Positions 32,342 through 55,692 of a DNA stretch of 64,000 nucleotides are shown one piece after another (within the stretch, counting starts at the first letter, position 1; each line of letters opens with the position of its first letter). The stretch is from the NCBI RefSeq assembly GCF_024699985.1, contig NZ_JAJONA010000001.1, positions 4,718,501-4,782,500 on the forward strand, read 5' to 3'. Position numbers and translations under genes: made by a program. The notes under the pieces are model-generated. The model was not told the origin of the DNA. It saw only the letters and a list, made by a program, of their open reading frames with translations, and searched no databases. Source of the stretch: Phenylobacterium sp. J367. GTDB lineage: Bacteria > Pseudomonadota > Alphaproteobacteria > Caulobacterales > Caulobacteraceae.

Positions 32342-32357
32342 ACTTTGATATCTAACG
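32342..32357. promoter_or_regulatory. island operator, copy A
   Basis: ACTTTGATATCTAACG matches 13 of 16 positions of the consensus ACTTAGATATCTAAGT. It lies 15 bases before the start of the oxidoreductase gene, partly over a -10-like GATACT (32339-32344) and just before the ribosome site TTGGAGGG. A bound protein would block transcription start or elongation. Confidence 0.7.
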
Positions 32358-32372
32358 AATTGGAGGGAGCCC

Positions 32373-33365
32373 GTGCGCAAGACCGTTGTCCGGCTGAGGG
32401 CCCGCCCCTCCGGCCTGCCGCAGGCAAGCGACTGGGACATCCGCCAGGAGGAGGTCGCGGCGCCGAGCGACGGCGAGGTCCTGGTCGCGGTCCGCTATGT
32501 CTCGGTCTCGCCCTCGCTGCGCAACCAGATGGAGGCCGGCGGCGCCTATCTGCCGCCGCTGCAGCTTGGCGACACGCCGCGGGCCCGGGCGGTCGGCGAG
32601 GTGCTGGAAAGCCGCTCTCCGGACTACGCCCCCGGCGACCATGTGGAGGGCCTGCTGGGCGTCCAGAGTCACTTCACCGGCCCCACGACCACGCTGATGA
32701 AGGTCGATCCCGCGGTCGCGCCCCTGCCCCGCTACCTCGGGGCGCTCGGCATGACCGGCTTTACCGCCTATTTCGGCCTGCTGGATATCGGGCAGCCGAA
32801 GCCGGGCGAGACGGTCGTGGTCTCCGCGGCGGCGGGGGCGGTGGGCAGCATCGCCGGCCAGATCGCCAGGGTGAAAGGGTGCCGCGTCATCGGCATCGCC
32901 GGCGGGCCCGAGAAGTGCGCCCACGTGGTCCGCGACCTGGGCTTCGACGACTGCATCGACTATCGCGACGGCCGGCTGAGCGAGCGGCTGGCCCAGGCCG
33001 CGCCCAAGGGCGTCGACGTCTTCTTCGACAACGTCGGCGGCGAGGTGCTGGACGAGGTGCTGCTGCATCTCGCCTTCAAGGCGCGGATCCCGCTCTGCGG
33101 CGGGATCGCCCATTACAACGCCGTGGGCCAGTTCGGCCTGAAGAACCACCTGAAGCTCCTCGAGACACGCGGCCGGATGGAGGGCTTCTCGGTCTACGAC
33201 TACGGCCCCCGCCACCTCGAAGCCCGCGACGCGCTGGCGGCCTGGCTGGCCGACGGCTCGATCGTCACGCACGAGCATGTCGAGGACGGGCTGGTGCGGT
33301 TTCCCGAGGTTCTGAGGCTGCTGTTCGGCGGCGGCCAGGTTGGCAAACTCATGGTGAGGGTCTGA
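32373..33365 (+). CDS. NADPH-dependent zinc-free medium-chain oxidoreductase
   Basis: The 330-residue enzyme belongs to the zinc-independent MDR group that includes prostaglandin/2-alkenal reductases and CurA. The N-terminal GroES-like part has YVSVSPSLRNQM, and the Rossmann part has the nucleotide-binding loop VSAAAGAVGSIAGQIA followed by GCRVIGIAGGPEKC. No catalytic zinc ligands are present. Such enzymes reduce activated double bonds of enones or enoyl compounds with NADPH. The gene starts with GTG behind TTGGAGGG and is directly preceded by operator copy A, so it belongs to the island regulon. The substrate is unknown. Confidence 0.86.
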   Translation: MRKTVVRLRARPSGLPQASDWDIRQEEVAAPSDGEVLVAVRYVSVSPSLRNQMEAGGAYLPPLQLGDTPRARAVGEVLESRSPDYAPGDHVEGLLGVQSHFTGPTTTLMKVDPAVAPLPRYLGALGMTGFTAYFGLLDIGQPKPGETVVVSAAAGAVGSIAGQIARVKGCRVIGIAGGPEKCAHVVRDLGFDDCIDYRDGRLSERLAQAAPKGVDVFFDNVGGEVLDEVLLHLAFKARIPLCGGIAHYNAVGQFGLKNHLKLLETRGRMEGFSVYDYGPRHLEARDALAAWLADGSIVTHEHVEDGLVRFPEVLRLLFGGGQVGKLMVRV

Positions 33366-33370
33366 AGAGG

Positions 33371-33868
33371 ATGAGCGAGTTGGATTTCGGCGGCCGGAGC
33401 CTGAAGAGCGAGCCCCTGTGCGTCGCCGCGTTCGAGGTGGGGGACATCATGGCGCTCGGGCCCTCGCCGTTCCGCAACCGGCGTGTGGGCTATGTGACCG
33501 GCGGCCGGTTCGAGGGCCCGCGCCTGACCGGCGACATCCTGCCGGGCGGCGGCAACTGGCCTGAGAGCGGGACCGCTGTGGACGGGGCGGCGCTGGGGAC
33601 CTTCGACGCCCGCTCCGTCTGGAGGACCGACGACGGGGCGGTGATCTATGTGACCTACACCGGCCGCAGCGTGGTGCCGGCCGACGTCGGCGCGGCGTTC
33701 CGCGACCCGGCCAAGCCGGAAGTGGACCCCAGCCGCTATTCGATCCGCGTGGCCTTCGTCTTCGAGACCGGGGACCCGCGCTACGACTGGCTGAACGGCC
33801 TGCTGGCGGTGGGTTGCGGCGAGCGGGTCGAGGGCGGCGTCCGTCACTACATCCACGCCATCGGCTGA
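33371..33868 (+). CDS. DUF3237-family protein
   Basis: This 165-residue protein starts five bases after the oxidoreductase and is surely in the same transcript. It has a beta-barrel-like pattern with GYVTGGRFEGPRLTGDILPG (residues about 40-59), VWRTDDGAVIYVTYTG and FETGDPRYDWLNG, the hallmarks of DUF3237 proteins. That family has no settled function but occurs often in aromatic and xenobiotic degradation clusters. No signal peptide is present. Confidence 0.75.
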   Translation: MSELDFGGRSLKSEPLCVAAFEVGDIMALGPSPFRNRRVGYVTGGRFEGPRLTGDILPGGGNWPESGTAVDGAALGTFDARSVWRTDDGAVIYVTYTGRSVVPADVGAAFRDPAKPEVDPSRYSIRVAFVFETGDPRYDWLNGLLAVGCGERVEGGVRHYIHAIG

Positions 33869-33884
33869 CCGCTTCCGGAGCCGG

Positions 33885-34353
33885 CTATTCCGAGGGCTCC
33901 GCCGACAGGCGCCGCGCCTCGGCGGCCAGGTTGTCGGCCACCTTCTGGAGCACCGCCAGGCAGGTCGCGAGGTCCGCCTCCGACACCCCAGCGGCCGCGA
34001 CGCGGTTGATTCCGATCGCGATCGGGATGAGCTCGTGCTCCAGCGCCCGGGCGCGCGGGGTCAGGGAAACGTTGATCTTGCGCCGGTCGTCGGCATTGCG
34101 GACGCGCTTGATCAGGCCCAGCCGGTCCATGGCCGACAGCACGGTCACGGCGGTCGGCTCGGTGACGTTGGTGAGCTGCGCCAGCCGCTTCTGGGTGACG
34201 CCGTCCTCGGTCCAGAGCGCCCTCAGGAAGTACCAGAAGCCGCTGGAGAAGCCCTCGCGGGCGAGGCGCGCGTTCAGCACACGGTCGAACGCGCGATGGC
34301 AGCGGCGGACCTGGAAGCCGAGGCTCCGGTCGGGGGGGGAGCATCGTCTCCAT
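33885..34353 (-). CDS. MarR-family regulator 1 (one frame break)
   Basis: The repaired product has about 155 residues and the winged-helix MarR fold: GFSSGFWYFLRALW, the recognition region RLAQLTNVTEPTAVTVLSAM and the wing with NADDRRKINVSLT. Its ATG shares one base with the stop of the decarboxylase-like gene (TGATG), so it is the third gene of that operon. A run of eight G at 34332-34339 has one base too many; with seven the N-terminus reads METMLPPDRSLGFQVRRC and continues in frame. It is a candidate reader of the island palindrome, with aromatic acids as likely effectors in this family. Confidence 0.82.
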
Positions 34354-35345
34354 CAGATCTTGAACGTCTCGAAGGTTTCCGGGGCGAAGAGCTCGTCGGG
34401 CTGCAGGCGCCGCGACGAGAGGCCCTGCTCGTAGTGGTAGCGCAGAAAGGTGTCCAGCACGCTGCGGTTACGCGCGAAGCCGTAGGGCCACCAGTCGTCG
34501 CCCAGCTCGGCGCGGGCTTCCTCCACCGCGGCGACCTGCCAGGGCAGCATGGTCGTGTGCGCCGAGGTGACGGCGAGGTTGTCGTAGGTGATCGCCTGCG
34601 CCGCGCTGAACGCCTTGAACAGCGACTGGGCGATCCAGCGGTTGGCCTCGTAGACCTCCCGGCGGATCGCGACCACGTGCATGATCGGGAAGATGCCGGT
34701 TCGCCGGAAGTAGGCCTTCTCCACCTCGACGAAGTTCGGGAACAGGCGCTTCACGTCGTCAGGGCGGGAATAGAAGGTCGAGGGCGTGCGGGCGGTATGC
34801 AGCGCGTCGATTTCGCCGTCCGCGAGCATCTGGGCCAGCGTCTGTTCCGGCCCGATGGGCGTGACCTTGAACTTCGGCGGAAGGTTCAGCTTCAGCTTCT
34901 CGTCGCGCCCGGGCTCCTCCTCGCCGCCGGTGAAGTAGTGCTGGCCGGCCGGGTCGACGCCATACTCGTCGGCGAGGATGCCGCGGATCCAGACCGGCGC
35001 GGTCATCTGGTACTCCGGCACCCCGAAGCGCTTGCCGGCGAGGTCCGCCGGTTCGCGGATGCCACTCTTCGCCGAGACGAAGATGCAGGAGTGGCGGAAG
35101 AACCGCGACGGGAACACCGGGATGGCGATGAACGCCGGGTTCTCCCGCGTCAGCGAGACGCAGTAGGACGACAGCGACATCTCGGCCACGTCGAACTCCC
35201 GGTTCCGCAGCATCCGGAAGAAGGTCTCCTCCACGTGCAGCGGCAGGAAGTTGAGGTCGATGCCTTCCGGCTGGACGCGGCCGTCGGCGAGCGCCCGCGT
35301 GCGGTCGTAGTCCCAGCAGGCCAGGGTCAGCCGGAGTTTGCTCAT
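34353..35345 (-). CDS. 4,5-dihydroxyphthalate decarboxylase-like protein
   Basis: The 330-residue protein looks like Pht5/OphC, which removes a carboxyl group from 4,5-dihydroxyphthalate, a fold related to periplasmic solute-binding proteins. The start LRLTLACWDYDRTRALADG and the following VQPEGIDLNFLP are typical, as are RNREFDVAEMSLSSY and HTARTPSTFY. There is no signal peptide, which argues against a transporter component. Its place between a Gfo/Idh dehydrogenase (4-base overlap) and a MarR gene, beside a phthalate-type Rieske oxygenase, repeats the known phthalate gene set. The true substrate may be a different aromatic diacid. Confidence 0.8.
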   Translation of the reverse strand: MSKLRLTLACWDYDRTRALADGRVQPEGIDLNFLPLHVEETFFRMLRNREFDVAEMSLSSYCVSLTRENPAFIAIPVFPSRFFRHSCIFVSAKSGIREPADLAGKRFGVPEYQMTAPVWIRGILADEYGVDPAGQHYFTGGEEEPGRDEKLKLNLPPKFKVTPIGPEQTLAQMLADGEIDALHTARTPSTFYSRPDDVKRLFPNFVEVEKAYFRRTGIFPIMHVVAIRREVYEANRWIAQSLFKAFSAAQAITYDNLAVTSAHTTMLPWQVAAVEEARAELGDDWWPYGFARNRSVLDTFLRYHYEQGLSSRRLQPDELFAPETFETFKI

Positions 35346-36506
35346 GTCGCGTTCCAGGTTTCGGTGATGTCGATCTCGCGGCCTTCGGCGGCCGAGCGGA
35401 GGATGGCGAGGCAGACGGCGAGGTTCTCCGCCCCCCAGGCGCCGGAATGCAGTGGCGGGCGGCCCTCAACGACGGCGGCCCAGAGCTCGTCGATCACGCC
35501 GTGCCGCGTCGCCGGCCCCACCGGGACCTCGACGGTGCGACGCTCTGTCGGACCGTAGACCTCGACGCCGGTGGCCGTGAGCCGCAGGTCGCCGCGCTCG
35601 CAGGCGACAATGGCCAGGCCGAAATGTTCGTGGCCCACGGGCCGGGCGCGCGCCCGGCGCGGTCCCATAGGCCCGGGCGGCCTTCAGCTCCTCCTCCGGC
35701 ACGCTCTGCAGGCGCCGGCGCGCGACCGCATAGGCCGCAGGATCCTTCGCGACGCCCGTCTCGCCCACCCAGCCCATCAGGGCGTCGGTGTCGTAGCGGC
35801 CGTAGCCGGAATAGGTCAGGGCCGCCGACCCGCCGCCCTCGAAGGTCAGGAAGGCCTGGTACGCGCCCTCGGTCGGCCGCGCCGGGTCCCAGGCGCCCAC
35901 GGTGGCCCGGACGCTCCGCACGGGCGCGTCCATCAGCCGCCGGACCACGTCAACCTGGTGCGCCGCCTGGCTGAACACCACGCCGCCGCCCTGGGCGGTC
36001 TCCAGCTCGGCCGGCCGCCGTGGCCGATAGAGAAAGTCGGTGAAGGTGGTGAGCGTGACCATCCGCGGCCGCCCGAGCTCGCCGGACGCGATCAGGTCGG
36101 CGGCGGCGGCCACCGGCGGGTCGAAGCCGTGGCTCGGCCCCACCACGAGGGCCACGCCCGCCGCCTCGGCCGCCTGCGTCATCGCCCGGCAGTCGGCGAC
36201 GCTGAGCGCCATCGGCTTCTCGACCAGCACGGCGAGGCCCTGCCTCGCCGCGGCGATCGCCAGCTCCGCGTGGCTCTCATGAGGGGTGGCGATGTAGACC
36301 GCGTTCAGGCCGCCTGAGCGATAGAGCGCGTCCGCGGTGTCGAAGGCCGCAACACCGAACTCCGATTCGAACGCGGCGCGGGCTTCCGCGCGCGGGTCCG
36401 CCGCGCCGGCCACGACCACGCGCGGGTCGGCGACCAGGGTTGGCCGGGTCAGGTCGAACCCGCGGCTCAGACCCACCACGCCGAGACGGAGCACACGCCC
36501 GGACAT
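35342..36506 (-). CDS. Gfo/Idh/MocA-family dehydrogenase (one frame break)
   Basis: The repaired product has about 387 residues. The N-terminus has the Rossmann fold (RVLRLGVVGLSRGFD), then NAVYIATPHESHAELA and the family signature VLVEKPMALSVADC with the catalytic Lys. The C-terminal beta-sheet domain follows. In phthalate degradation a member of this family oxidises the cis-dihydrodiol made by the oxygenase, and this gene is first in an operon with the decarboxylase-like protein, divergent from the Rieske gene. One extra base lies somewhere in 35630-35668. The start is ATG at 36506; TTG at 36518 is an alternative. Confidence 0.8.
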
Positions 36507-36548
36507 ACGCTGCGGCAACCCCCCTCAACCCTTCGTGGCGCCGGCCGC

Positions 36549-36593
36549 TGGACAGCGGCCACGTCCCTCCATAAAATACTTCGATATCTAAGT
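36549..36593 (+). promoter_or_regulatory. promoter with island operator, copy B
   Basis: TGGACA (36549-36554) and TAAAAT (36572-36577) form a good -35/-10 pair with a 17-base spacer, pointing at the Rieske oxygenase gene. Immediately downstream lies ACTTCGATATCTAAGT (36578-36593), 15 of 16 matches to the island consensus. The operator would cover the transcription start, a classical repressor arrangement. The same site may control the divergent dehydrogenase operon. Confidence 0.78.
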
Positions 36594-36611
36594 CTTTTGC
36601 AATGAGAGCCG

Positions 36612-37889
36612 ATGAGACCCGCCGACAACGAACTTCTCTGCCGGGTGGAGGGCGAGGCCCCGATGGGCCGGGTCATGCGCCAGCACTGGCTGCCCGCCTG
36701 CATGAGCGAGGAAGTGGCCGAGGCCGACGGGACACCGGTGAAGGCCCGTCTGCTGGGCATCGACCTGGTGGTGTTCCGCGACACCAAGGGACGCGTCGGC
36801 GTGCTGGACGAGAAGTGCCCGCACCGTGGGGCCTCCCTGGTCTTCGGCCGGAATGAGAACTGCGGCCTGCGCTGCCTCTACCACGGCTGGAAGTTCGGGG
36901 TGGAGGGCGAGATCCAGGAGATGGCGTCCGAGCCGCCCGGCAGCCGGATGATGAACCTGAAGCACCGCGCCTATCCCGTTGAGGAGTCGGCAGGCTTCGT
37001 CTGGGTCTGGATGGGCGATCCCGAGGCCGTCGCGCCCTTCGAGACGCCGTCCTGGGCGCCGACCTCCACCGGAACGATCTCCATCGTGAAGATGCACGCG
37101 GCCTGCAACTGGGCCCAGGTGCTGGAGGGCTCGATCGACAGCGCCCACTCCTCCAGCCTGCACTCCACCAACATGCCGACCGCCGAGGTCGAGGGCTCCA
37201 CGGCCACCGAGACCGCCTGGCTGCGTCCGTCGAACGACAAGGCGCCGAAGCTGGAGGTGGAGGCCACGGACTTCGGCTTCCACTACGCCGCGATCCGCCG
37301 GCCCATCCGAGATCCGGAGACCCACGTCTACATCCGCACGACGGTGTTCATCGCGCCCTTCACGGTGCTGATCCCGCCGAATGACCAGTACAACCTCGCC
37401 CAGATGCTGGTGCCGATCGATGATGTGAACTGCATGTTCTACTGGATCGCCTGGCACCCCACGAAGGGCATCGGCCAGGACGCCTGGCGGAAGTTCTGCG
37501 GGGCGGAGGTCGGCCCCGACCTGAACCCCGACTTCACCAAGAAGCGGAACCTCGCCAACCGCTACGAGCAGGACCGCGCGGCCATGAAGGCCGGCGACTT
37601 CACCGGCATCACCGGCATCCCGACCCAGGACATGGCCATGTGGGAGAGCATGGGGCCGATCGCCGACCGCAGCGAGGACCACCTCGGCTCGTCGGACGCC
37701 GCGATCATCCAGTTCCGCCGCCAGATGGTGGCCGCCGCCAAGGCCTGCGCGGCCGGCGAACCGGCGATCGGAACCCGCAGCGCCACGCCGCGCGTCGACC
37801 TGGCCTCCTTCGAGGGCGTGGTGCCGAAGACCGCCGACTGGCGGGGCTTCACGACCCGTGCCCGCGTGGCCAACGCCGCCGCCGAATAG
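36612..37889 (+). CDS. phthalate-type Rieske oxygenase, large subunit
   Basis: The 425-residue protein should be the terminal oxygenase of an aromatic ring-hydroxylating system. It has the Rieske [2Fe-2S] site CPHRGASL and CLYHGWKF (residues about 60-95) and the mononuclear iron site in NWAQVLEGSIDSAHSSSLHS, with bridging Asp and two His. The opening LLCRVEGEAPMGRVMRQHWLP is typical of phthalate 4,5-dioxygenase-like alpha subunits, which work as trimers without a beta subunit. No ferredoxin reductase gene lies in the window, so electrons must come from elsewhere. It has its own promoter and operator copy B. Confidence 0.9.
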   Translation: MRPADNELLCRVEGEAPMGRVMRQHWLPACMSEEVAEADGTPVKARLLGIDLVVFRDTKGRVGVLDEKCPHRGASLVFGRNENCGLRCLYHGWKFGVEGEIQEMASEPPGSRMMNLKHRAYPVEESAGFVWVWMGDPEAVAPFETPSWAPTSTGTISIVKMHAACNWAQVLEGSIDSAHSSSLHSTNMPTAEVEGSTATETAWLRPSNDKAPKLEVEATDFGFHYAAIRRPIRDPETHVYIRTTVFIAPFTVLIPPNDQYNLAQMLVPIDDVNCMFYWIAWHPTKGIGQDAWRKFCGAEVGPDLNPDFTKKRNLANRYEQDRAAMKAGDFTGITGIPTQDMAMWESMGPIADRSEDHLGSSDAAIIQFRRQMVAAAKACAAGEPAIGTRSATPRVDLASFEGVVPKTADWRGFTTRARVANAAAE

Positions 37890-37953
37890 GGCCGCTTTGA
37901 CAACGGCGGCCAAGCACCCCACCAAGGCTCGGGGGACGGGAGGCTTGGCCGAC

Positions 37954-38421
37954 GTGACGGCGGACGACGATATCCGGCATCTGCTGCTGTCGCTGCTCCA
38001 GGGCTTCTACTGGTGCGACGAGAGTCTTCAGAACTATCTGCGGACCCGCGGCTGGCCGTCGGTGACGCGGCCGCAGTCCATGGTGATGGCCAATGTCGCG
38101 CTGGGCGTCCGCAGGCCGTCCGACATCGCGCGCCGCCTGGGCGTCAGCCGCCAGGCGATCCACGCCACGATCATCCAGATGGCGAAGCTCGGCATCGTCG
38201 AACTCGCCAACGACCCGACCAACCGGCGCGTGAAGGTGGTCGCCCTCACCGCTCAGGGCGAGGCCATGCGGGCCGACGCGCAGAAGGCCATGGTGCTGAT
38301 GGGCGAGGCGCTCTTCGAACGCTTCGGCAGGGCGCAGGTCCTGAAGACCGCCCATCTCCTGGGCGAGGACTGGGGGCCGCCGCTGACCTTCGGCCCGCCT
38401 GAGCCGAAGGCCGGCGGCTGA
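37954..38421 (+). CDS. MarR-family regulator 2
   Basis: The 155-residue protein has a winged-helix domain with RRPSDIARRLGVSRQAIHAT as the recognition region and DPTNRRVKVVALTAQG as the wing. It differs from the other two MarR proteins of the island, which lack the long N-terminal YWCDESLQNYLRTRGWP segment. The frame is open further upstream into the Rieske gene, but GTG at 37954 has GGGAGG ten bases before it. It follows the Rieske gene by 64 bases and converges with the hydrolase gene. A small hairpin (GGCCGC 37890-37895 with GCGGCC 37906-37911) lies between. Confidence 0.8.
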   Translation: MTADDDIRHLLLSLLQGFYWCDESLQNYLRTRGWPSVTRPQSMVMANVALGVRRPSDIARRLGVSRQAIHATIIQMAKLGIVELANDPTNRRVKVVALTAQGEAMRADAQKAMVLMGEALFERFGRAQVLKTAHLLGEDWGPPLTFGPPEPKAGG

Positions 38422-38425
38422 ACCG

Positions 38426-39556
38426 CTAGCGCTTGGCGGCGACCCAGTCGGCCAGCAGGTCGGCGGCCGTGTCGCGCTCCTGGCGGCTGTCCTCGAAATA
38501 GTGGAGCCCTTGATCAGCTCGAGCTGCTTGTCGGTCGAGCCGATGTTGTCGAAGATCTTCCGGGCGTCGCTCGGGAACACCCCGGTGTCGGCCAGCCCCT
38601 GCACCACCAGGCTCGGCAGCGTGAACTTGGCGAGCTGCTCGGCGCCCTGGCACTTCGAGGTTTCCAGGCTCCACATGGAGAGCCAGGTCTTCAGGTTGTT
38701 CGCGCGGCCGATCGAGGGCGTGCGGTTCGCCACCGCCGGATGGCCGCGGTAGCACATGGGCGTCTGGCGCTCGGACGGATCGATGGAGCCGTCCATCATC
38801 CGCAGGTCGCCCCAGCAGCGGAACAGCGGGAACAGGCGGTCCGGGATGCCGGCGTCGTTCAGGCGCTTCAGCTCCGCCTTCGCCCAGTCGGTGATCCGCT
38901 GGTTGCGGGCCCGCTGGGCCGCGCGGTAGCGGGCGATGAACTCTTCCGAGTAGGGCGGGCCGTTGTCCGGGTTGAAGGGGTTCAGGCTCTCGTCGGTGGC
39001 CACCGGATCGAACTCGTCGACCACAGAGGCGTCCATCCAGTCGGTCAGCACCTCGGGCCGGCCCTGGTGGGCGTTGAAGGAGACGTAGAGCTCGGCCTTG
39101 GGAAGCGTGTTCAGGGCCTCGAGGCCCGGGCCGGTCAGCAGGTCGCCGAGCGTCGGCTGGATCGCCTCGGCCAGGTAGGCGCCCATCAGCGACCCGCCGC
39201 CCGAGTTGCCGAGGATGACGATGGTCTCGACGCCCCGCTCGCGGAGCCAGCGCATGCCCACCCCGATGTCGATGACCGCGTGCTCCAGCAGGAACTGGTC
39301 CTCGGCGCCGCGATAGCGGGTGTTCCAGCCCAGGAAGCCGTAGCCCCGCGCGGCGAGGTAGGGCGCGATGTAGTGCTCGGAAAAGTCGACGTTGTAGTGC
39401 GTGGCGATGAAGGCGGTCTTGGGCTTCTGGCCCTTCGGCGTCGTATAGATGCCCTGGCAGGGATGGCCCCCGGCCTGGATGCGCGGCGCGGTCGGGGGAG
39501 ACCACACCGATGAACTCGCGGTCCACCTTCGCCATCAGGTCGCTGTCGTCGATCAC
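38426..39556 (-). CDS. alpha/beta hydrolase (two frame breaks)
   Basis: The repaired product has about 376 residues. The nucleophile elbow is ILGNSGGGSLMGAYL with Ser in G-N-S-G-G, preceded by the N-terminal sheet (KTAFIATHYNVDFSEHY). The probable acid lies in LADTGVFPSDA, and the His in GLHYFEDSRQ near the C-terminus. A long lid of about 120 residues separates elbow and acid. The frame gains a base at 39494-39498 and loses one at 38507-38509. A GTG at 39556 behind GGGGAG is the better start; ATG at 39571 is also possible. Operator copy C lies between this gene and the divergent acyl-CoA ligase. Confidence 0.78.
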   Translation of the reverse strand: MIDDSDLMAKVDREFIGVVSPDRAAHPGRGPSLPGHLYDAEGPEAQDRLHRHALQRRLFRALHRALPRRAGLRLPGLEHPLSRRRGPVPAGARGHRHRGGHALAPRAGRRDHRHPRQLGRRVADGRLPGRGDPADARRPADRPGPRGPEHASQGRALRLLQRPPGPARGADRLDGRLCGRRVRSGGHRREPEPLQPGQRPALLGRVHRPLPRGPAGPQPADHRLGEGGAEAPERRRHPGPPVPAVPLLGRPADDGRLHRSVRAPDAHVLPRPSGGGEPHALDRPREQPEDLALHVEPGNLEVPGRRAARQVHAAEPGGAGAGRHRGVPERRPEDLRQHRLDRQAARADQGLHYFEDSRQERDTAADLLADWVAAKR

Positions 39557-39600: not shown

Positions 39601-39616
39601 ACTTCGTAATCTAAGT
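39601..39616. promoter_or_regulatory. island operator, copy C
   Basis: ACTTCGTAATCTAAGT matches 13 of 16 positions of the consensus. It sits in the divergent gap between the alpha/beta hydrolase and the acyl-CoA ligase and overlaps a TAATCT that could be a -10 box for the ligase, with TTGCCG (39585-39590) sixteen bases upstream. Confidence 0.68.
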
Positions 39617-39662: not shown

Positions 39663-41292
39663 ATGCGCGCGCTGATGCAGGAGTGGTCGCTGACCCTGGA
39701 CAAGCTGCTGGACCACGCCGCCCGCTGGCACGGCGAACGCGAGATCGTGACGCGCTCCGTGGAAGGCCCGGTCACCCGCAGCACCTGGGCCGACATCCAC
39801 CGGCGCGCCAAACAGGTCTCCCACGGGCTCCTGGAACTCGGCGTGAAGCCGGGCGACCGGGTCGCCACCATGGGCTGGAACTCCGACCGCCACCTGGAGG
39901 CCTGGTACGGCGCCGTGGGCATCGGCGCGGTGCTCCACACCCTGAACCCGCGGCTCTTCCTCGAGCAGATCGCCTATATCGCCAATCACGCCGGCGACGA
40001 GATCCTGCTGGCCGATCCCGCGTGCGCGCCGCTGCTGGAGGAGCTGCTTCCCCAGTGCCCGACGATCCGGAAGGTGATCTTCCTCAGCGAGGAGGTCCCA
40101 CCCGCCTCGTTCGCCGCCGAGGCCTTTGAGCCCTGGCTCGCCGGGCGGCCCACGGACACGCCCTGGGGGCGGCTTCGACGAAAACGCGGCGGCGGGCCTC
40201 TGCTACACCTCGGGCACCACCGGCAATCCCAAGGGCGTGCTCTACGGACACCGGTCCAACTACCTGCACGCCATGATGACGCTGCAGCCCGACGCCCTGA
40301 ACCTGTCGGCGCGCGACACCATCCTGCTGATCGTGCCGATGTACCACGCCAACGCCTGGGGGGTGATGTACTCGGCCCCGCTGGTCGGCGCGAAGCTGGT
40401 GCTGCCGGGCCAGAAGCTGGACGGCGCCTCCCTGCACGAGCTGATCGAGACCGAGGGCGTCACCTACTCAGCCGGCGTGCCGACCATCTGGCAGATGCTG
40501 CTGGCGCACCTGAAGGAGACCAAGGGGAAGCTGACGACCCTCCAGCGGGTCACGGTCGGAGGCTCGGCCTGCCCGGAATCGATCATCCGTACGCTGCACG
40601 ATGACTACGGCGTGGACGTGATCCAGGGCTGGGGCATGACCGAGACCTCGCCCCTGGCGACGATATCGGTCCCCAAGCGTCCGGGCCTCAGCTTCGAGGA
40701 CTCCATCCCCGGCAAGCTCAAGCAGGGCCGCCTGCTGGGCAATCTCGACCTGAAGCTGGTGGACGACGCGGGGAAGCGCCTACCGCACGACGGCAAGACC
40801 TTTGGCCGCCTGATGATCAAGGGACCGACCATCGCCAGCGCCTACTACGGCTCACCGCCCGGTTCGGCGCTCGACGAGGAAGGCTTCTTCGACACCGGCG
40901 ACGTGGCGACGATCGACGCCGACGGCGACATGCAGATCACCGATCGGGCCAAGGACGTCATCAAGTCCGGCGGCGAATGGATCAGCTCGATCGACGTGGA
41001 GAACATCGCCGTCGGCCACCCGAAGGCGGCGCTCTGCGCGGTGCTGGGCGTCGTGCATCCGAAGTGGGACGAGCGGCCAGTGCTGCTGGTCCAGCTTGAG
41101 CCTGGCCAGGCGGCGGACAAGCAGGAGTTCCTGGACTTCCTGGATGGCAAGATCGCCCGCTGGTGGATGCCGGACGACGTGGTCTTCGTGGAGCAAATCC
41201 CCCTCGGGCCCACCGGCAAGATCGACAAGAAGCTGCTACGCCAGACGCTGACGGGCTACCAGCTCCCCTTCGATCCGAACCTCAAGCGCTGA
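39663..41292 (+). CDS. medium/long-chain acyl-CoA ligase (one frame break)
   Basis: This AMP-forming ligase activates a carboxylic acid to its CoA thioester. The repaired product has about 542 residues with the P-loop YTSGTTGNPKGVLYGHRS, the adenylate-site motif QGWGMTETSPLA, FDTGDVATIDADGDMQITDR and the C-terminal Lys motif GPTGKIDKKLLRQ. The N-terminus (WSLTLDKLLDHAARWHGER) is typical of medium-chain fatty acyl-CoA ligases. An extra G in the run 40165-40169 breaks the frame near residue 168. Operator copy C precedes it, so it is part of the regulon and may activate the side chain of the island's substrate. Confidence 0.88.
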
Positions 41293-42377: not shown

Positions 42378-42453
42378 CGTAGCGACTTTTCCATCCCCGC
42401 CCCGGCGCCGCAATCGCATGCGTTGACAGCTTCCGCGCCCGTTCCTACGGAAT

Positions 42454-42469
42454 ACATAGAATTCTAATC
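42454..42469. promoter_or_regulatory. island operator, copy D
   Basis: ACATAGAATTCTAATC matches 11 of 16 consensus positions and keeps the inner palindrome TAGAATTCTA. It is the second weakest copy. It lies 17 bases before the MetE-like gene, just upstream of its ribosome site, with TTGACA at 42423-42428 about 25 bases before it. It may serve both that gene and the divergent MarR 3. Confidence 0.55.
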
Positions 42470-48015: not shown

Positions 48016-48031
48016 CCTTAGAATACGAAGC
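48016..48031. promoter_or_regulatory. island operator, copy G
   Basis: On the minus strand this reads GCTTCGTATTCTAAGG, 10 of 16 matches to the consensus but 13 of 16 to copy C. It lies 7 bases before the GTG of the kinase gene, overlapping its ribosome site. It is the weakest copy and is called mainly because of its position at the head of the operon. Confidence 0.45.
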
Positions 48032-48154: not shown

Positions 48155-48775
48155 ATGGCCGCTCCGATCAACCGCGAATTCGACATCCGCGGCGTCAATC
48201 ACCTGGCGCTCGTGTGCAAGGACATGGCGAAGACCGTCGAGTTCTACCGCGACATCCTGGGGATGCCGCTGGTGAAGACCATCGACCTGCCGAACGGCAT
48301 GGGCCAGCACTTCTTCTTCGACATCGGCAACGGCGACTCGCTGGCCTTCTTCTGGTTCCCCAACGCCCCGGCGGCGGTCCCCGGCGTCTCGGCGCCCGCT
48401 CAGCTCCCCGGCGGCGGCGACATCCGCTCGGCGCACGGCTCGATGAACCACATCGCCTTCAACGTGCCGGCCGAGAAGTTCGACGAGTACCTCGTCAAGC
48501 TGGAGGCCAAGGGCGTGCAGCTCGGCAAGGTGCTGAACCATGACGACTCGCCGATGCAGCACACCGATGAGCTCCACGACGGCGTCTTCGTGCGCTCGGT
48601 CTACTTCTGGGATCCGGACGGCGTGATGCTCGAGTTCGCCTCCTGGACGCACAACGGTTTCACCGAGAAGGACGTCGCCCACGAGGCCGTGGACGCCGCC
48701 GGCGCGAAGTCGCGCAACGTGGTGCTGAAGGCCCTCGCCGAGAACGACGAGAAGGTCCTCGAAACGGCCAAATAG
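48155..48775 (+). CDS. VOC-family (glyoxalase/extradiol dioxygenase) protein
   Basis: The 206-residue protein has two beta-alpha-beta modules of the vicinal oxygen chelate fold. Probable metal ligands are the His in GVNHLALVCKD, the His in SMNHIAFNVP and the Glu in GVMLEFASWT, which gives the two-His one-Glu site of extradiol dioxygenases and glyoxalase-like enzymes. TVEFYRDILGMPLVK is the usual first helix. Length suits a one-domain dioxygenase or an isomerase. The gene stands in the gap between the kinase operon and the TonB receptor operon; ring cleavage of a catecholic intermediate is one possibility. Confidence 0.82.
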   Translation: MAAPINREFDIRGVNHLALVCKDMAKTVEFYRDILGMPLVKTIDLPNGMGQHFFFDIGNGDSLAFFWFPNAPAAVPGVSAPAQLPGGGDIRSAHGSMNHIAFNVPAEKFDEYLVKLEAKGVQLGKVLNHDDSPMQHTDELHDGVFVRSVYFWDPDGVMLEFASWTHNGFTEKDVAHEAVDAAGAKSRNVVLKALAENDEKVLETAK

Positions 48776-48822: not shown

Positions 48823-48827
48823 ATCCG

Positions 48828-48855
48828 TTGACACCAACACTTAGATATCTAATTT
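48828..48855 (+). promoter_or_regulatory. promoter with island operator, copy E
   Basis: TTGACA (48828-48833) and TAATTT (48850-48855) form a -35/-10 pair with a 16-base spacer. ACTTAGATATCTAATT (48839-48854), 15 of 16 matches to the consensus, fills the spacer and covers the -10 box. This is a textbook repressor position and one of the two best copies. It drives the TonB-receptor gene. Confidence 0.82.
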
Positions 48856-48979
48856 TGGGTCTAAGGATCGGAGCCTGACAGAGGTCTCCGGCCCCGGCGC
48901 GAAGAGCGCCTGACCAAGGTCCGATCAAGATCCGTGCGCAGAACGCGGCTTGACGCAAAACAGGGGGAGGCAGCGCAGA

Positions 48980-51178
48980 ATGAACGTCCGGATTCTATTC
49001 GCGACCACCATGCTGGCCGGCGGGCTGGCTACGGCGACGATGGCGCAAGAGGCCACCAGCATCGGCGAAGTCGTCGTGACCGCCCAGAAGCGGGCCGAGA
49101 ACGTCCAGGAGGTGCCGATCTCCATGGAGGTGGTGTCGGCCCAGACCATCGAAGACTTCCACTCCGACACCTTCCGCCAGCTCAGCGTGCCGAACGTCAA
49201 CGTCGGCAACATCGGCGGCAACGACGTCATCTACATCCGCGGCTTCGGCTCGCCGTCGCAGAACTACTCGTTCGACCAGGCGGTCAGCCTCTACGTCGAT
49301 GGGGTCTATGCGGGGCGCAGCCGGCAGTTCATGGCCCCCTTCTTCGACCTGCAGCGGGTCGAAGTGCTGCGCGGGCCGCAGGGCGCGCTGTTCGGCAAGA
49401 ACACCGCCGCCGGCGCCATCAGCATCATCTCCGCCATGCCGACCCGCGAATTCGAGGGCTCGGTGACGGGGGTCTACAATTTCGACGAGAAGGGTCCCGG
49501 CGCGTGGGGCTACGTCTCCGGGCCGATCACCGACAGCCTGGGCATCCGCCTGGCGGCCAAGCTGCTCGACAAGGACGGCTACGTGGAGAACCTCGGCCAG
49601 AACGGCCGGGACGAAGTCACCAACAAGCAGGCGCTGGTGCGCGGGATCCTGCGCTACGAGCCGAACGACGTCTTCGACTACACCGGCAAGGTCGAGTACA
49701 GCCAGGCGATCCAGCTCGGCAACGCCACCGTGGCCGGACCGGTGACCGGCGGCCAGCAGCCGAAGCTGACCCGCTTCACCACCGATGGTCCGCTCGGCGA
49801 GGCGGGCTTCGACACCTTCTCCTGGAACGTCGCCGGCACGGGCAACCTGCAGGTGGGCGACCTGACGCTGGTCTCGGTCAGCGGCTTCTCCTGGTTCAAG
49901 GCCAAGCACGTCAACGACTTCGACCAGACGAACCCGGCGGGCGGCGTCTTCCCGCACACCGTGTCGAACAACTACCCCGAACGGTTCCAGCAGTGGTCGC
50001 AGGAGTTCCGCCTGCAATCGCCCGGCGGCGAGCGCCTCGACTGGATCGTGGGCGCCTACTACGACAATCAGCAGTACATGGTGGATCAGTACAACCACTA
50101 TGGGATCGCCGGCCTCGGCCAGTTCACGATGTACAGCCACTTCAAGCAGCAGGCGGAGAGCTGGTCGGTCTTCGGCCAGGGCACCTTCAACGTCTCCGAA
50201 GAGCTGCGCCTGCTGGGCTCGCTGCGCTACTCCCACACCAGCAAGCGCGGCGACTTCACGACCAAGTCCCTGCGCGGCCCCTTCCCGTTCCGCCCGATCA
50301 CCTCGGCGCGCGACAACATCTCGGAAGGCAATGTCGACCCGTCGATCACCGTCCAGTACGACGTGGCGCCGCGCATCATGGTCTACGCCACCTACGGCCA
50401 GGGCTCGAAGTCCGGCGGCTTCGTGTCGAACACCTACGGCACCACCAACGCCACCTTCACCTTCAAGCCTGAGAAGTCGGAGAACTTCGAGGCCGGCGTG
50501 AAGAGCACCCTGGCCGACGGCCGGCTGGTGCTGAACGCCGCGGTCTACAAGACCAGCTTCGAGGACCTGCAGGTCTCCACCTACAACTCGAACGTCCAGA
50601 GCTACATCGTCGGCAACGCCGCGGAAGCCAGCAGCACGGGCATCGAGGGCTCCGCCGTCTGGAACCCGATCCGCAACCTCACCGTGACCGCCAACGGCGC
50701 CTACCAGGACGTGAAGTACGACGACTATCCGGGCGCCCAGTGCCTGGCGACGCAGCCGATCAGCGAGTGCAATCCGACGGTCCCGGCCAGCGTGGCGGCG
50801 AACAACCTGAAGGGCTACCCGCTGCCGAACATCTCCAAATGGAGCGGCACGCTGCGCGTGCAGTACGTGGCCGAGCTGCCGAACGGCCTGAACCTCACGA
50901 CCATGCTCGCCGCCAACGGCCGCTCGAAGCACTTCAACTCGGACGACCAGAGCATCGAGTACGGCCTGCAGGAGGGCTACACCAAGCTCGACGGCCGCAT
51001 CGAGCTCGCCCCCGCCGACGGCCCCTGGCACGTCGCGCTGGTCGGCACCAACCTGACGGACGAGATCACCACCAGCGGCTCCTTCCGGCTTCCCGCGCCG
51101 ATCGCACCGGTCACCCGCGCGCTCTACTGGGTGGAGCCCGGCCGCAACGTGGCGATCGAGGCCGGCGTGAAGTTCTGA
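48980..51178 (+). CDS. TonB-dependent receptor of the catabolic island
   Basis: The 732-residue outer-membrane receptor has a signal peptide (RILFATTMLAGGLATATMA), a TonB box region GEVVVTAQKRAENVQEVP, a plug with VEVLRGPQGALFGKNTAAGAIS and a 22-strand-type barrel ending RNVAIEAGVKF. It belongs to the large group found in sphingomonads and Caulobacterales next to degradation genes. ATG at 48980 follows GGGGGAGG. With operator copy E in its promoter it should be made only when the inducer is present, and it probably imports the island's substrate. A terminator follows at 51185. Confidence 0.92.
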   Translation: MNVRILFATTMLAGGLATATMAQEATSIGEVVVTAQKRAENVQEVPISMEVVSAQTIEDFHSDTFRQLSVPNVNVGNIGGNDVIYIRGFGSPSQNYSFDQAVSLYVDGVYAGRSRQFMAPFFDLQRVEVLRGPQGALFGKNTAAGAISIISAMPTREFEGSVTGVYNFDEKGPGAWGYVSGPITDSLGIRLAAKLLDKDGYVENLGQNGRDEVTNKQALVRGILRYEPNDVFDYTGKVEYSQAIQLGNATVAGPVTGGQQPKLTRFTTDGPLGEAGFDTFSWNVAGTGNLQVGDLTLVSVSGFSWFKAKHVNDFDQTNPAGGVFPHTVSNNYPERFQQWSQEFRLQSPGGERLDWIVGAYYDNQQYMVDQYNHYGIAGLGQFTMYSHFKQQAESWSVFGQGTFNVSEELRLLGSLRYSHTSKRGDFTTKSLRGPFPFRPITSARDNISEGNVDPSITVQYDVAPRIMVYATYGQGSKSGGFVSNTYGTTNATFTFKPEKSENFEAGVKSTLADGRLVLNAAVYKTSFEDLQVSTYNSNVQSYIVGNAAEASSTGIEGSAVWNPIRNLTVTANGAYQDVKYDDYPGAQCLATQPISECNPTVPASVAANNLKGYPLPNISKWSGTLRVQYVAELPNGLNLTTMLAANGRSKHFNSDDQSIEYGLQEGYTKLDGRIELAPADGPWHVALVGTNLTDEITTSGSFRLPAPIAPVTRALYWVEPGRNVAIEAGVKF

Positions 51179-51184
51179 TCCCGA

Positions 51185-51225: not shown

Positions 51226-51251
51226 CCCGTAAGCGTCCGCGGAGCCGCCGC

Positions 51252-52001
51252 ATGATCGACGTCCACTTCGTGCCCACGCCGAACGGGCGGAAGGTGACGA
51301 TCATGCTGGAGGAGGTCGGTCTCCCCTACCGCGTGATCCCCTACAACATGCTCGAGGGCGAGCACCTCACGCCCGAGTTCCGCAGGATCAATCCCAACGG
51401 CCGCCTGCCGGCCATCGTCGACCATGAGCCGATCGGCGACGGCGCCCCGTTCGCCGTCATGGAATCGGGCGCGATCCTGCTCTACCTCTCCGAGAAGGCC
51501 GGCGGGGCTCTCGTGCCCCCCGATCCTCGAGGCCGCTCCGAGGCTGTCCAATGGCTGATGTGGCAGATGGCCGGCCTCGGCCCGATGCACGGCCAGGCCC
51601 ACCACTTCATCCGCTACGCTCCCGAGGGTCAGGACTACGGCGTCGCCCGCTACGGCAATGAGGCGCGCCGGCTGCTGTCCGTGCTGGAAGCGCGGCTGTC
51701 CGAGACCGAGTATCTGGCCGGCGACTACTCGGTCGCCGACATCGCCGCCTGGCCCTGGGTCGGCGCGACCTACGCCATCGGCTTCGAACTGGACCCCTAC
51801 CCCGCCACGCGGCGCTGGATGGCGTCGATCGCCGAACGTCCGGCCGTGAAGCGCGCCACCGAGGCCAAGAACGCCGCCAACCTCCAGAGCCGCCGCCCGG
51901 TGCTGACGCCCGAGCAGTGGTCCAACCTGTTCGGCGAGAACATGCTGAAGGGGTCCGGCGTCGCCGACCCGCAAGCCGGGAGCCTCACGAGAACGCCATG
52001 A
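51252..52001 (+). CDS. glutathione S-transferase (YfcG/YghU-like)
   Basis: The 249-residue protein has an N-terminal thioredoxin-like domain with the probable glutathione-contact TPNGRKVTIMLEEVGL, NPNGRLPAIVDHE with the cis-Pro, and VMESGAILLYLSEKAG with the Glu-Ser pair that binds the gamma-glutamyl part. The helical C-terminal domain has YSVADIAAWPWV. T/S-P-N-G at the start is the signature of the Nu-class enzymes, which act as disulfide reductases or conjugate electrophiles. It overlaps the transporter gene by 4 bases (ATGA), so the two form an operon. Confidence 0.9.
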   Translation: MIDVHFVPTPNGRKVTIMLEEVGLPYRVIPYNMLEGEHLTPEFRRINPNGRLPAIVDHEPIGDGAPFAVMESGAILLYLSEKAGGALVPPDPRGRSEAVQWLMWQMAGLGPMHGQAHHFIRYAPEGQDYGVARYGNEARRLLSVLEARLSETEYLAGDYSVADIAAWPWVGATYAIGFELDPYPATRRWMASIAERPAVKRATEAKNAANLQSRRPVLTPEQWSNLFGENMLKGSGVADPQAGSLTRTP

Positions 52002-53312
52002 CCTCACCCGCCACGGCCGTTCCTGCCGCCGCCTCCGCCATCGCCGCCAAGCCGGGCCGGATCCTCGCCCTCGTCCTGCTGACCGCGGTCGGCACGACCA
52101 ACTTCATGGACCGGCAGATCCTGTCGGTCCTGGCCGAGCCGATCCGCCAGGACCTTGGCTTGACCGACACCCAGCTCGGCCTGCTGACCGGCCTCGCCTT
52201 CGCGTTCTTCTATGCGATCATGGGCGTGCCCGCGGCCATGCTGGCCGACCGCACCAACCGTGTGCGGCTCGTCGGCCTCTGCTGCATGGTCTGGAGCTTC
52301 TTCACCGGGGCCTGCGCCTTCGCGAACTCGTTCGTGCACCTGGCGTTCGCCCGGTTTGGCGTGGGCGTCGGCGAGGCCGGCGGCACCGCCCCATCCCTCT
52401 CCATCCTGGCCGACTACTACCCGCCCCGGATGCGGCCGGCGATCATCGGCCTCTTCACCGCCAACGGCCCGCTGGGCGTCTTCGTGGGCGCCAGCTTCGG
52501 CGGCTGGGCCGCCGCCGAGTACGGCTGGCGGACAGCCTTCCTGCTGGTCGCCGGCGTTGGCGTGATCGCCTCTATCCTCCTCATGCTGTTCGTCCGCGAG
52601 CCCGCCCGCGGGGGGCTGGATCCGGTCCCCAGGACGCCGATGAAACCCCAGCCGCTGGGCGCCACGGCCAAGGTGTTCATCTCCCGCCCCACCCTGCGCT
52701 GGCTGGTCGTGGCGAGCGCGCTGGCCGCCTTTGTCAGCACCGGGATGCTGGCCTGGATCCCCGCCTATCTGATGCGCGTCCAGGGAATGCCGCTGACCGA
52801 GGTCGCCAAGTGGTTCGGCCCCGCGGCGGGCATCTGCTTCGGCATCGGCATCGCCGGCGGCGGCCTGCTGGTGAACTGGGCCTCGCGCCACAGCCTGAAG
52901 GCCTACGCTTGGATCCCCCGGCCTCTCGATGCTGCTGACCGCGCCGACCATGGCGCTGGCCCTCGTCGCCCCGAACTGGGAGACGGCGCTCGCCCTGCTG
53001 ATCGTGCCGATGATCCTGTCGACCATCTATGTCGCCCCGGCGCTCGCCCTGGTGCAGAACCTGTCGCCGGTGGCCGCGCGCGCCACGGTGACGGCGCTCC
53101 TCATGCTGGCCTTCAACATCATCGGCCAGGGCGGCGGCCCGTTCGCGACCGGCCTGCTTAGCGACATCCTGGCCGCCCGGGGCGTGGCCGACTCCCTGCG
53201 GGTCGCCATGCTGGGGGTGACGCCCGTCGCGGTGATCGCGGCGCTCTGCTACTTCGCCCAGCTCCGCCACGTGATCGACGACGCCGCGGCCGTGGAGCGC
53301 GACGCCGCCTGA
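51998..53312 (+). CDS. MFS transporter (one frame break)
   Basis: The repaired product has about 437 residues and twelve predicted helices. It begins with VGTTNFMDRQILSVLAEPI, followed by the loop DLGLTDTQLGLLTGLAF and the signature GVGVGEAGGTAPSLSILAD, all typical of the MFS subgroup annotated as spinster-like or aromatic-acid type carriers, common in alphaproteobacterial degradation clusters. An extra C in 52915-52919 breaks the frame near residue 307. It overlaps the GST by 4 bases. Uptake of the compound that the TonB receptor brings into the periplasm is a reasonable guess. Confidence 0.85.
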
Positions 53313-53322
53313 CGCAGGCCGG

Positions 53323-53697: not shown

Positions 53698-53711
53698 GTG
53701 CGCCCTCCGCC

Positions 53712-54482
53712 TCAGTTGGCCATGCCGCCGCCGTCCACGGCGATGTCGGCCCCGGTGATGAAGCCGCTCTCGTCCGACGCCAGGAACAGCGCCGCCTGAG
53801 CCACATCCTCGGGCTCGCCGATCCGCTTGAGGAGCTGGCGGGCGATGGCGCGTTCGGTCCAGCCCTCCTGCTTCATCAGAGGCTCGGTCTGGGCCGAGCG
53901 GATCATGCCGGGCGAGATGGTGTTGGCGCGGATGAAGTGCTTGCCGCCTTCGGACGCATACTGCCGCGTCATGGCGGTGACCGCGCCCTTCGCCGCGGAG
54001 TGCGCCAGCATCCCCTGCGCGGTGGAGCCCTTCTTCGCCGCCGTCGAGGCCGTGTTGATGATCGAGCCGCCGCCGCGCGCCACGAGGTGCGGCCAGGCCG
54101 CCCGGCAGAGGTGGAAGATGATGTCCACCTCCTCGCGCTGGGTCCTGTTGAAGGTCTCGTAGTCCATGTCCGGGACAAACGCGAAATAGGCCATGGCGGC
54201 GTTGTTGTAGACCACGTCGATCGCGCCGTAGTTCTCCAGCGCGAAGGCCACCAGCCGCTCGGCGCCTTCCGGGACCGACAGGTCGACCGGCTGCAGCGAG
54301 ACCATCTGGCCGCCCTCGGCGCGCACCTCTTCGGCGGTCTGGCCGCCCGCCGGGTTGATGTCGCAGCCCACCACCTTGGCCCCCTCGCGCGCGAACAGCC
54401 GGGCGGCGGCGCGGCCCATGCCGCTCCCCGTGCCGGTGATGATCGCGACCTTTCCGTCCAGGCGTCCCGGCATCGGCTTCAC
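53712..54482 (-). CDS. short-chain dehydrogenase lacking the catalytic tyrosine
   Basis: The 256-residue protein has the classical SDR layout: VAIITGTGSGMGRAAARLF for the cofactor, VYNNAAM, the Ser in SIINTASTAA, and GGGMAN at the end. The active-site motif, normally Y-x3-K, reads HSAAK in GMLAHSAAKGAV: a His codon (CAC) stands where a Tyr codon (TAC) is expected. The Lys is kept. The enzyme may be impaired, use another acid, or the base may be a sequencing error. It overlaps the upstream double-SnoaL gene by 4 bases. Confidence 0.82.
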   Translation of the reverse strand: MKPMPGRLDGKVAIITGTGSGMGRAAARLFAREGAKVVGCDINPAGGQTAEEVRAEGGQMVSLQPVDLSVPEGAERLVAFALENYGAIDVVYNNAAMAYFAFVPDMDYETFNRTQREEVDIIFHLCRAAWPHLVARGGGSIINTASTAAKKGSTAQGMLAHSAAKGAVTAMTRQYASEGGKHFIRANTISPGMIRSAQTEPLMKQEGWTERAIARQLLKRIGEPEDVAQAALFLASDESGFITGADIAVDGGGMAN

Positions 54483-55608
54483 TCCCCTGACTTGCGATCG
54501 AGCAACGGCGCGACGACCGGGCGCGCCACGTCGGCGTCGCCGCGCTGGCCCCGGAACTGAGCCGGAACGCCGCCCAGGCCGCCGTCACGCACCGGCTGGT
54601 CGTGACGCCATTCCACGAGCGTCTGGCGCTCGGCGATCTTCCAACGGCCGTCGCGCTTCTCCAGACGGTCTACGTAGCGGCCGGCGCCGATCCCTTCGTA
54701 GGGCTCCTCGCGCCCGCCCCAGAAGGCGCCGGCCGGGCCGTCGTCGGGACGGCATGGAAGGCCGTGACGTAGGTCTCGGCCCAGGCGGTGTCGCCCTCCA
54801 CCCGGATCAGCATGTTGCCCGTCTGGTGCAGGGTGGCGGTGAGCGGGCCCAGCAGGTTGCGGCCGTTGGCCAGGAACTGGTCGATGGTGCGGACGGAATC
54901 CAGGAACCGCGTCGTGGCGTCCTTGTGGAAGACGTCGTCCACCAGGTCCCACTGGTGACGGTCGACCATGTGGGCGAAGCGGTTGATCACGTCGGCGATC
55001 TCGGCGCGGGCGGCCAGCACCTCCAGGGTCGGCGCGGCCGGCGGCCGGGCGTCCCGCCAGGGCGCGATCACCGGGGCGGCCACGTCGGCGTCGCCCCACT
55101 CGCCGCGGAACTTCTCGGGCGTGTCCACGAGCCCGCCTTCGGCCACCGGCCGATAGTGCCGGTATTCCGAGCGCGACTGCCGCTCGGCGATCTTCCAGAC
55201 GCCGTTCCGCTTCTCGAACCGGTCGACGTAGCGGGCGCCGAAGACTGCGTCATAGGCCTCCCCCGTACCCCCGAACGGCCCGCCCCGCGGGGCATCGGCC
55301 GGCACCCGGTGGAAGGCGGTGAGGTAGGTCTCGCTGTGGGCCACGTCGCCGTCCAGGGCGATCAGGATGTTGCCGACCTGGTGGTGGGTCACGCCGACGG
55401 GCTTCAGCAACGCCTCGCCCTGCCGGACGAACTCGCGCCAGTCGCCGCCGATCACCGAAAGCTGGCAGGTGGCGTCCTCGTGGAACACCGTGTCCATCAG
55501 CCACCACTGCCTGCGGTCGGTGGCATGGCAGTAGCGGTAGATCACGTCGGTGATCTCGGCCCGCGCGGCCAGCGCTTCCAGTCCGTAGTCGGACGAATTG
55601 GTCGCCAT
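54479..55608 (-). CDS. tandem SnoaL-like protein (one frame break)
   Basis: The repaired product has about 376 residues and consists of two copies of one NTF2-type domain. Copy 1 (residues about 10-180) and copy 2 (about 195-370) share the same landmarks in order: ALAARAEITDVIYRY versus VLAARAEIADVINRF, FHEDATC versus FHKDATT, ARYVDRFEKRNGVWKIAERQ versus GRYVDRLEKRDGRWKIAERQ, and FRGEWGDADVAAPV versus FRGQRGDADVARPV. Each copy holds the usual Tyr, Asp and His positions of this family of hydratases. It is an internal gene duplication. A missing G near 54746-54748 breaks the frame in the second copy. Operator copy F precedes it. Confidence 0.8.
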
Positions 55609-55650
55609 GGCGTTCCTCCCGCCTCACGTCCGCGTGGACCGCGGAACATC

Positions 55651-55692
55651 ACTTAGACATCTAACTAAAGTGCAGTTATCGTCTGAATGCAA
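55651..55692 (-). promoter_or_regulatory. promoter with island operator, copy F
   Basis: On the minus strand TTGCAT (55687-55692) and TTTAGT (55664-55669) form a -35/-10 pair with a 17-base spacer. ACTTAGACATCTAACT (55651-55666 on the plus strand) matches 14 of 16 consensus positions and overlaps the -10 box and start site. It heads the operon of double SnoaL, SDR and SnoaL genes, and lies in the gap shared with the next SnoaL gene on the plus strand. Confidence 0.72.

Follow-up and report, generated by a model that had tools for sequence, protein, structure and literature searches.

Palindromes at the promoters of a Phenylobacterium catabolic cluster as probable operators of a MarR-family repressor

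Genes and palindromes of the cluster

Phenylobacterium sp. J367 carries, within a stretch of 64,000 nucleotides (the window; positions 4,718,501 to 4,782,500 of contig NZ_JAJONA010000001.1), a catabolic gene cluster that contains seven copies of one 16-bp palindrome. The seven 16-mers stand where a preliminary description of this DNA had placed them and match the consensus as it had counted (13, 15, 13, 11, 10, 15 and 14 of 16, that is, 3, 1, 3, 5, 6, 1 and 2 mismatches); all are intergenic and head transcription units, as judged from open reading frames (ORFs) and Pfam matches. Because the middle four bases vary among relatives, we adopted the spacer form ACTTAG-N4-CTAAGT (ACTTAGNNNNCTAAGT), which has 12 fixed positions and TTAG-N4-CTAA as its exact core. 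Within the window the exact core is found at the sites 48839 and 55651 only. The sites are numbered below as putative operators 1 to 7; apart from the decarboxylase and the composite hydrolase frame, genes were assigned by Pfam, with further evidence given where there is any.

Operator 1 (ACTTTGATATCTAACG, 32342-32357; 3 of 12 positions mismatched) lies 15 nt before the start of a plus-strand gene for an MDR-type reductase (ADH_N_2 and ADH_zinc_N; 32373-33365), for which the nearest NCBIfam model, curcumin reductase, scores below its cut-off. A minus-strand unit begins with a Gfo/Idh/MocA dehydrogenase (35466-36518), continues with a 4,5-dihydroxyphthalate decarboxylase-like protein (34353-35345; PDB 9jp7, E 3.5e-90, residues 1-330 of 330) and ends with MarR1 (33885-34280), a sister of the MarR2 protein described below, in a PhtR-like position. 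The Gfo protein resembles 4,5-dihydroxyphthalate dehydrogenase, its ortholog in a congener (locus L092) matching PDB 7wzd, an entry of that title (E 5.3e-123). Operator 2 (ACTTCGATATCTAAGT, 36578-36593) separates the Gfo gene from the plus-strand gene of a Rieske oxygenase of the phthalate-dioxygenase type (LigXa_C; 36612-37889), which matches PDB 7fjl (E 2.6e-167). The entry 7fjl is given as the PDO of Comamonas testosteroni KF-1 in PMC12445004.

A single minus-strand open frame (37849-39507) combines an alpha/beta hydrolase (residues ~1-335) with the third MarR-like protein of the window (residues ~380-546, ~37849-38370); the two are separate ORFs in the congener L092 and in L095. Operator 3 (ACTTCGTAATCTAAGT, 39601-39616; 1 of 12 mismatched) lies between this frame and the plus-strand gene of an AMP-forming acyl-CoA ligase (39663-41292). 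The ligase gene is broken into two frames in this assembly (39663-40604 and 40126-41292) and forms a single 552-aa ORF in the congener L095. This split ligase (39663-41292), and MarR1 (33885-34280), which is without an in-frame start matching that of its orthologs, possibly reflect indel errors of the assembly. The minus strand then encodes an NADPH-dependent FMN reductase (41295-41882) and MarR2 (41898-42377; 159 aa, start set by orthologs, recognition helix GMREPTTVIALKSLERSGFV). Operator 4, a weak site (ACATAGAATTCTAATC, 42454-42469; 3 of 12 mismatched), is situated between MarR2 and the plus-strand gene of a short MetE-like methyltransferase (42487-43536; also PDB 3rpd).

An APH-type kinase (47004-48008, minus strand) heads a kinase-enolase-dehydrogenase-hydrolase unit that includes an enolase paralog with changed active-site residues (45706-47007, minus strand; Pfam and alignment) and a D-2-hydroxyacid dehydrogenase (44762-45805, minus strand). 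Operator 5 (CCTTAGAATACGAAGC, 48016-48031; 3 of 12 mismatched) occupies the gap between the kinase and a VOC/glyoxalase-fold protein (48155-48775, plus strand), and operator 6 (ACTTAGATATCTAATT, 48839-48854) the gap between the latter and a TonB-dependent receptor (48980-51178, plus strand). A GST-like protein (51252-52001) and an MFS transporter (51917-53161) follow on the plus strand, and an SDR dehydrogenase (53712-54482) and a SnoaL protein with two matched stretches (54670-55608) on the minus strand. Operator 7 (ACTTAGACATCTAACT, 55651-55666; 1 of 12 mismatched) stands between the latter gene and a divergent SnoaL-like gene (55722-56165, plus strand).

Rarity and conservation of the sites

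With up to three mismatches the 16-mer occurs five times in the window and in none of 100 dinucleotide shuffles of it. We also scanned the whole genome (4.95 Mb in two contigs, completeness 83%) by pattern search with mismatch counts rather than by weight matrix, using the backwards pattern as control. At the same threshold the genome holds six places, five of them in the window, and the backwards pattern gave none. The 12-position motif with at most one mismatch is found at four places in the genome, all inside the window; the best sites are thus confined to the cluster and are not spread through the genome. Allowing two mismatches gave 16 places, as against 19 for the backwards control, the latter as a total over all mismatch numbers. 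The remaining 12 places, at two mismatches, are read as background because of this control, and the pattern at this level was rejected as a source of further regulon members. The sites at 32342, 42454 and 48016, with three of 12 mismatches each, are too degenerate to stand out genome-wide by themselves; we accepted them because the orthologous gaps of relatives hold copies, the weakest case being 42454.

The sixth genomic 16-mer (C1:1700924-1700939; positions 1501-1516 of L004) lies 45 nt before an SDR gene, far from the cluster, and could be a member in trans or a chance match. The ORFs beside it are presumably ruvC and ruvA. For this SDR, no ortholog outside its own genome was found at E 1e-100 in 60 genomes, with at most 44 first-look candidates scored in each. 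A two-mismatch copy of the motif at C1:712652-712667, near a MarR-like gene (712000-712380) whose product is 32% identical to MarR2, may likewise be due to chance.

Conservation was followed in 100 genomes (that of J367 and 99 relatives) and in loci obtained by a MarR2-alignment scan of named genomes, of which the best 80 of 101 confirmed were used (L088-L167; Sphingopyxis, Novosphingobium and Sphingosinicella are among them). Loci L088-L111 are mostly from Phenylobacterium, and L112-L167 are 56 more distant MarR2 loci. As read from the orthologous genes, the cluster recurs in Phenylobacterium and, partially, in sphingomonads. Gap counts exclude the window and omit 12 loci whose contigs agree in length with contigs already counted (L088, L089, L095, L096, L098, L100-L104, L107 and L111). 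Rows across relatives share kinship and are not independent, and L093 and L097 are seemingly near-identical relatives. One relative, G036, was counted once in the Gfo/Rieske gap, its contig ends overlapping: the Rieske/TonB stretch stands at either end of its contig C1, with the frames broken in one copy, which is probably end redundancy in a circular assembly that was left unclosed.

Sites with at most two of 12 mismatches are kept before the orthologous genes: in the Gfo/Rieske gap of 12 of 13 relatives, in the kinase/VOC gap of all ten (two of these with no mismatch), in the VOC/TonB gap of nine of ten and in the SnoaL/SnoaL gap of three of three, each time with a single mismatch. Two gaps are weaker, namely hydrolase/AMP ligase (3/13 relatives; shuffle p ≤0.05 in 11/13) and MarR2/MetE (7/23; shuffle p ≤0.05 in 13/23). 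Orthologs of the MDR reductase (E 1e-110) occur in 2 of the 99 relatives and both keep the site, with three mismatches before the gene in G031, and with one in G039, where it heads an apparent two-gene unit containing the gene. Eight kinds of control gap gave 0 of 154 rows at this threshold (FMN reductase/AMP ligase 0/11, MetE/hydrolase 0/51, TonB/GST 0/8, GST/MFS 0/5, decarboxylase/MarR1 0/9, Gfo/decarboxylase 0/14, double SnoaL/SDR 0/3 and enolase/dehydrogenase 0/53), and nine control rows in total, from six of the eight kinds, reached shuffle p ≤0.05. The MarR2/FMN-reductase gap, entered as a ninth control, held such copies in 5 of 53 rows, all of them in L112-L167, where they look like a real second operator.

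The clusters are rearranged among congeners, yet the sites remain in the same gaps. This bears on the idea that the palindromes arose by chance or were copied recently along with a single promoter. Nothing speaks for it beyond how short the motif is; it is opposed by the empty set of 100 shuffles and by flanking sequences that vary from promoter to promoter while the motif persists before orthologs, and we give it virtually no credence.

Candidate repressors

The three MarR-like proteins that the preliminary description had named are all present in the window, and the main candidate could be narrowed to MarR2 (41898-42377), with its sister MarR1 (33885-34280) as a possible co-reader. MarR2 is a MarR winged-helix protein by its match to PF01047 (51 bits, cut-off 24.6) and is not SlyA proper, scoring 43.3 bits against a cut-off of 120 for the NCBIfam SlyA equivalog; its matches to SlyA models and structures are weak. 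Sites with at most two of 16 mismatches were found in 14 of the 100 genomes, and backwards control matches in 9 of 100. With orthologs of MarR2 defined at E ≤1e-50 (a cut-off of our choosing, as were the per-gene identity thresholds), such a site is present in 9 of 12 relatives that have an ortholog vs 4 of 87 others (Fisher p 8e-8).

The exact core, furthermore, lies within 300 nt upstream of MarR2 in 40 of the 79 loci whose sequence reaches far enough (0.07 in shuffles on average and 1 at most; 1 in the control with the reversed motif), and in 37 of the 56 loci L112-L167. Many of the latter have a further core in the MarR2/FMN-reductase gap, plus one some kilobases upstream. In the window, the regulator's own promoter carries the three-mismatch site at 42454. 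The recognition helix is near-invariant among MarR2 orthologs. Because of the co-occurrence, the core that precedes its gene in many distant loci and the constancy of this helix, MarR2 is the best candidate for the reader of the sites.

Could MarR1 instead be the true regulator of all sites, with MarR2 controlling something else? MarR1 shares a unit with the dehydrogenase and the decarboxylase, and a MarR gene stands at the equivalent place in the pht cluster of Sphingobium yanoikuyae SHJ, as given in the accessible part of its report (PMC6051330). The Rieske gene itself also keeps the core over long distances: among 385 sampled genomes of the class, 13 orthologs besides that of J367 were found (E ≤1e-120, 52-64% identity), and the exact core occurs no more than 200 nt upstream of nine of these 13 (mean of the shuffles 0.033, maximum 1). 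The putative operator before this type of Rieske gene thus looks old. However, two congeners, G011 (97% complete) and G026 (89%), have MarR2 and a one-mismatch Rieske site while no MarR1 ortholog was found in them. Moreover, among the distant loci in which 37 of 56 have the core before MarR2, a second MarR1/2-like gene was seen only in L167, within the stretch examined. We therefore regard control by MarR1 alone as unlikely.

MarR1 and MarR2 are 43% identical and have EPT in common in their recognition helices, so that the sisters might share operators, MarR1 serving mainly the Rieske promoter and MarR2 the rest, with cross-reading and two overlapping regulons. One half of the Rieske site is often ACTTCG, and the Gfo/Rieske gap of S. 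witflariensis holds ACTTCTATATAGAAGT, next to a MarR1-like gene. The differences between half-sites are small, however, and ACTTCG occurs at the AMP-ligase site too. Such a division of labour is possible, if less likely than not; cross-reading of the Rieske promoter by MarR1, taken for itself, is likely.

Several observations weigh against MarR2 as the principal reader. The exact core lies upstream of MarR2 in just 3 of the 23 loci L088-L111; because of this, and because the MarR2/MetE gap keeps the site in 7 of 23, support for the predicted autoregulation of MarR2 is weak within this genus. Three relatives that have MarR2 (G036, G044 and G051) are without a site at up to two of 16 mismatches, G036 and G051 having sites with three, and four genomes without MarR2 have sites at that level, a background comparable to that of the backwards control (9 of 100 genomes). 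The third MarR adjoins ligase/hydrolase genes in L092 and L156 as well. Finally, a nearby MarR gene was seen in only 4 of the 13 short distant Rieske loci, its product being 37-45% identical to MarR2. The motif is thus not exclusive to MarR2, because distant Rieske genes keep the core and few have a MarR gene nearby.

Promoter geometry and proposed control

Promoters were read from consensus and not mapped. At the TonB receptor, an exact TTGACA stands 5 nt before the operator in 11 of 11 promoters, the window's included; in the window, operator 6 takes up the spacer that follows TTGACA (48828-48833) and extends as far as the presumed -10 element (48851-48856). Operator 2 directly follows a promoter-like pair, TGGACA-17-TAAAAT (36549-36554 and 36572-36577), and operator 4 comes just after TTGACA-17-TACGGA (42423-42428 and 42446-42451). 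The predicted overlap of operator and promoter is the geometry of a polymerase-blocking repressor.

The same overlap with -35- and -10-like elements could mean that the sites are conserved promoter elements, or elements bound by a nucleoid protein, and not MarR operators. The genome-wide rarity of the palindrome, a dyad symmetry kept in many copies, the link to MarR2 across orders and the likeness to the SlyA box all tell against this, and we consider it highly improbable. At the TonB promoters of G002, G031, G045 and the window (48839-48866), an extra half-site, TCTAAGG, lies just downstream; in G002, G031 and G045 this makes two overlapping palindromes 12 bp apart, and cooperative binding is possible.

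Returning to the repressor, we consider it probable that the palindromes serve as operators for a MarR-family protein, chiefly MarR2, which would control its own promoter as well, and that its release couples uptake to catabolism. Bound as a dimer to TTAG-N4-CTAA within the core promoters, MarR2 would block RNA polymerase at units that encode the TonB receptor, the acyl-CoA ligase and hydrolase, the kinase and enolase, the MetE-like protein, the SnoaL and SDR proteins, the MDR reductase, and the phthalate-type Rieske oxygenase, dehydrogenase and decarboxylase. An aromatic substrate, or a CoA ester of it, would then release MarR2 and switch on uptake and catabolism together. The analysis establishes the sites, their conservation, their overlap with promoter-like elements and their co-occurrence with MarR2; binding, repression, such a ligand and a single substrate for the whole cluster are inferred. 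The PhtR-like sister, MarR1, is a probable reader of the Rieske operator and perhaps of further ones.

The preliminary description had also held that the sites define a single induced pathway. A regulon is supported by genome-wide specificity and conservation; a single pathway is not, since only the Rieske oxygenase, the dehydrogenase and the decarboxylase share a recognisable chemistry. By structure-database matches (for the dehydrogenase, through its L092 ortholog), these three correspond to the Rieske oxygenase, the dihydrodiol dehydrogenase and the 4,5-dihydroxyphthalate decarboxylase of the phthalate 4,5-dioxygenase pathway, and phthalate-type activity is predicted for them. We put forward, with somewhat less than even confidence, that TTAG-N4-CTAA is an operator conserved ahead of phthalate-type Rieske genes throughout Alphaproteobacteria and that it was put to further use, MarR1 and MarR2 jointly controlling that old module and the large kinase-enolase-CoA-ligase-TonB cluster. 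The regulons would then be fused by a shared operator and not by a shared operon.

Opposite what we take to be E168 and H373 of yeast enolase, the enolase paralog (45706-47007) has D and A in all 61 sequences, its own included, and opposite E211, K345 and K396 it keeps E, K and K in all 61; the AGASRG loop contains an arginine in 58 of them. It thus departs from the catalytic residues of a glycolytic enolase. A glycolytic role was rejected, as two key positions are changed in 61 of 61 sequences and the genome encodes another enolase, 42% identical to the paralog. From these residues, the paralog probably acts on a new substrate.

Among known systems, the SlyA box of Salmonella and E. coli (TTAGCAAGCTAA, or TTAN6TAA; PMC5797941, from the accessible part of the paper, as are the literature comparisons below) is closest in form. 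Its TTAG and CTAA half-sites and 4-bp spacing are the same, and the palindrome at the target promoters described here is of this SlyA type; unlike SlyA, the present system is tied to a local catabolic cluster, its box is extended by AC/GT, and MarR2 falls far under the NCBIfam cut-off for SlyA. The phtR-phtC-phtB/phtAa genes of S. yanoikuyae SHJ have the same order (MarR, decarboxylase, dehydrogenase/Rieske; PMC6051330); there, the role of phtR comes from genome annotation (PMC6051330), whereas here a predicted operator is common to a much larger cluster with its own MarR2. CouR, which responds to p-coumaroyl-CoA, is likewise a repressor of the MarR family that governs an aromatic-acid pathway (PMC4737184), with a gene set that differs from the present one. 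PheR of Sphingobium SHPJ-2 also places TonB uptake and aromatic catabolism under one repressor, but belongs to the IclR family and uses a GCAACG element (PMC13273656). In the literature searched, most subscription journals lying outside its scope, no MarR operator was found to be defined for a phthalate-type pathway, and the searches gave no match for the regulon itself or its wider gene set. The word TTAGATATCTAA gave a literature match only on Synechocystis, in the text accessible, and four other spellings of the motif gave none; leads on other regulator families had no bearing on this motif.

The palindromes define, from sequence, a testable regulon for this catabolic cluster and come with a likely repressor. 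They predict which of the scattered genes act together, the changed enolase and the kinase among them, and the operator set offers a candidate biosensor for aromatic acids.

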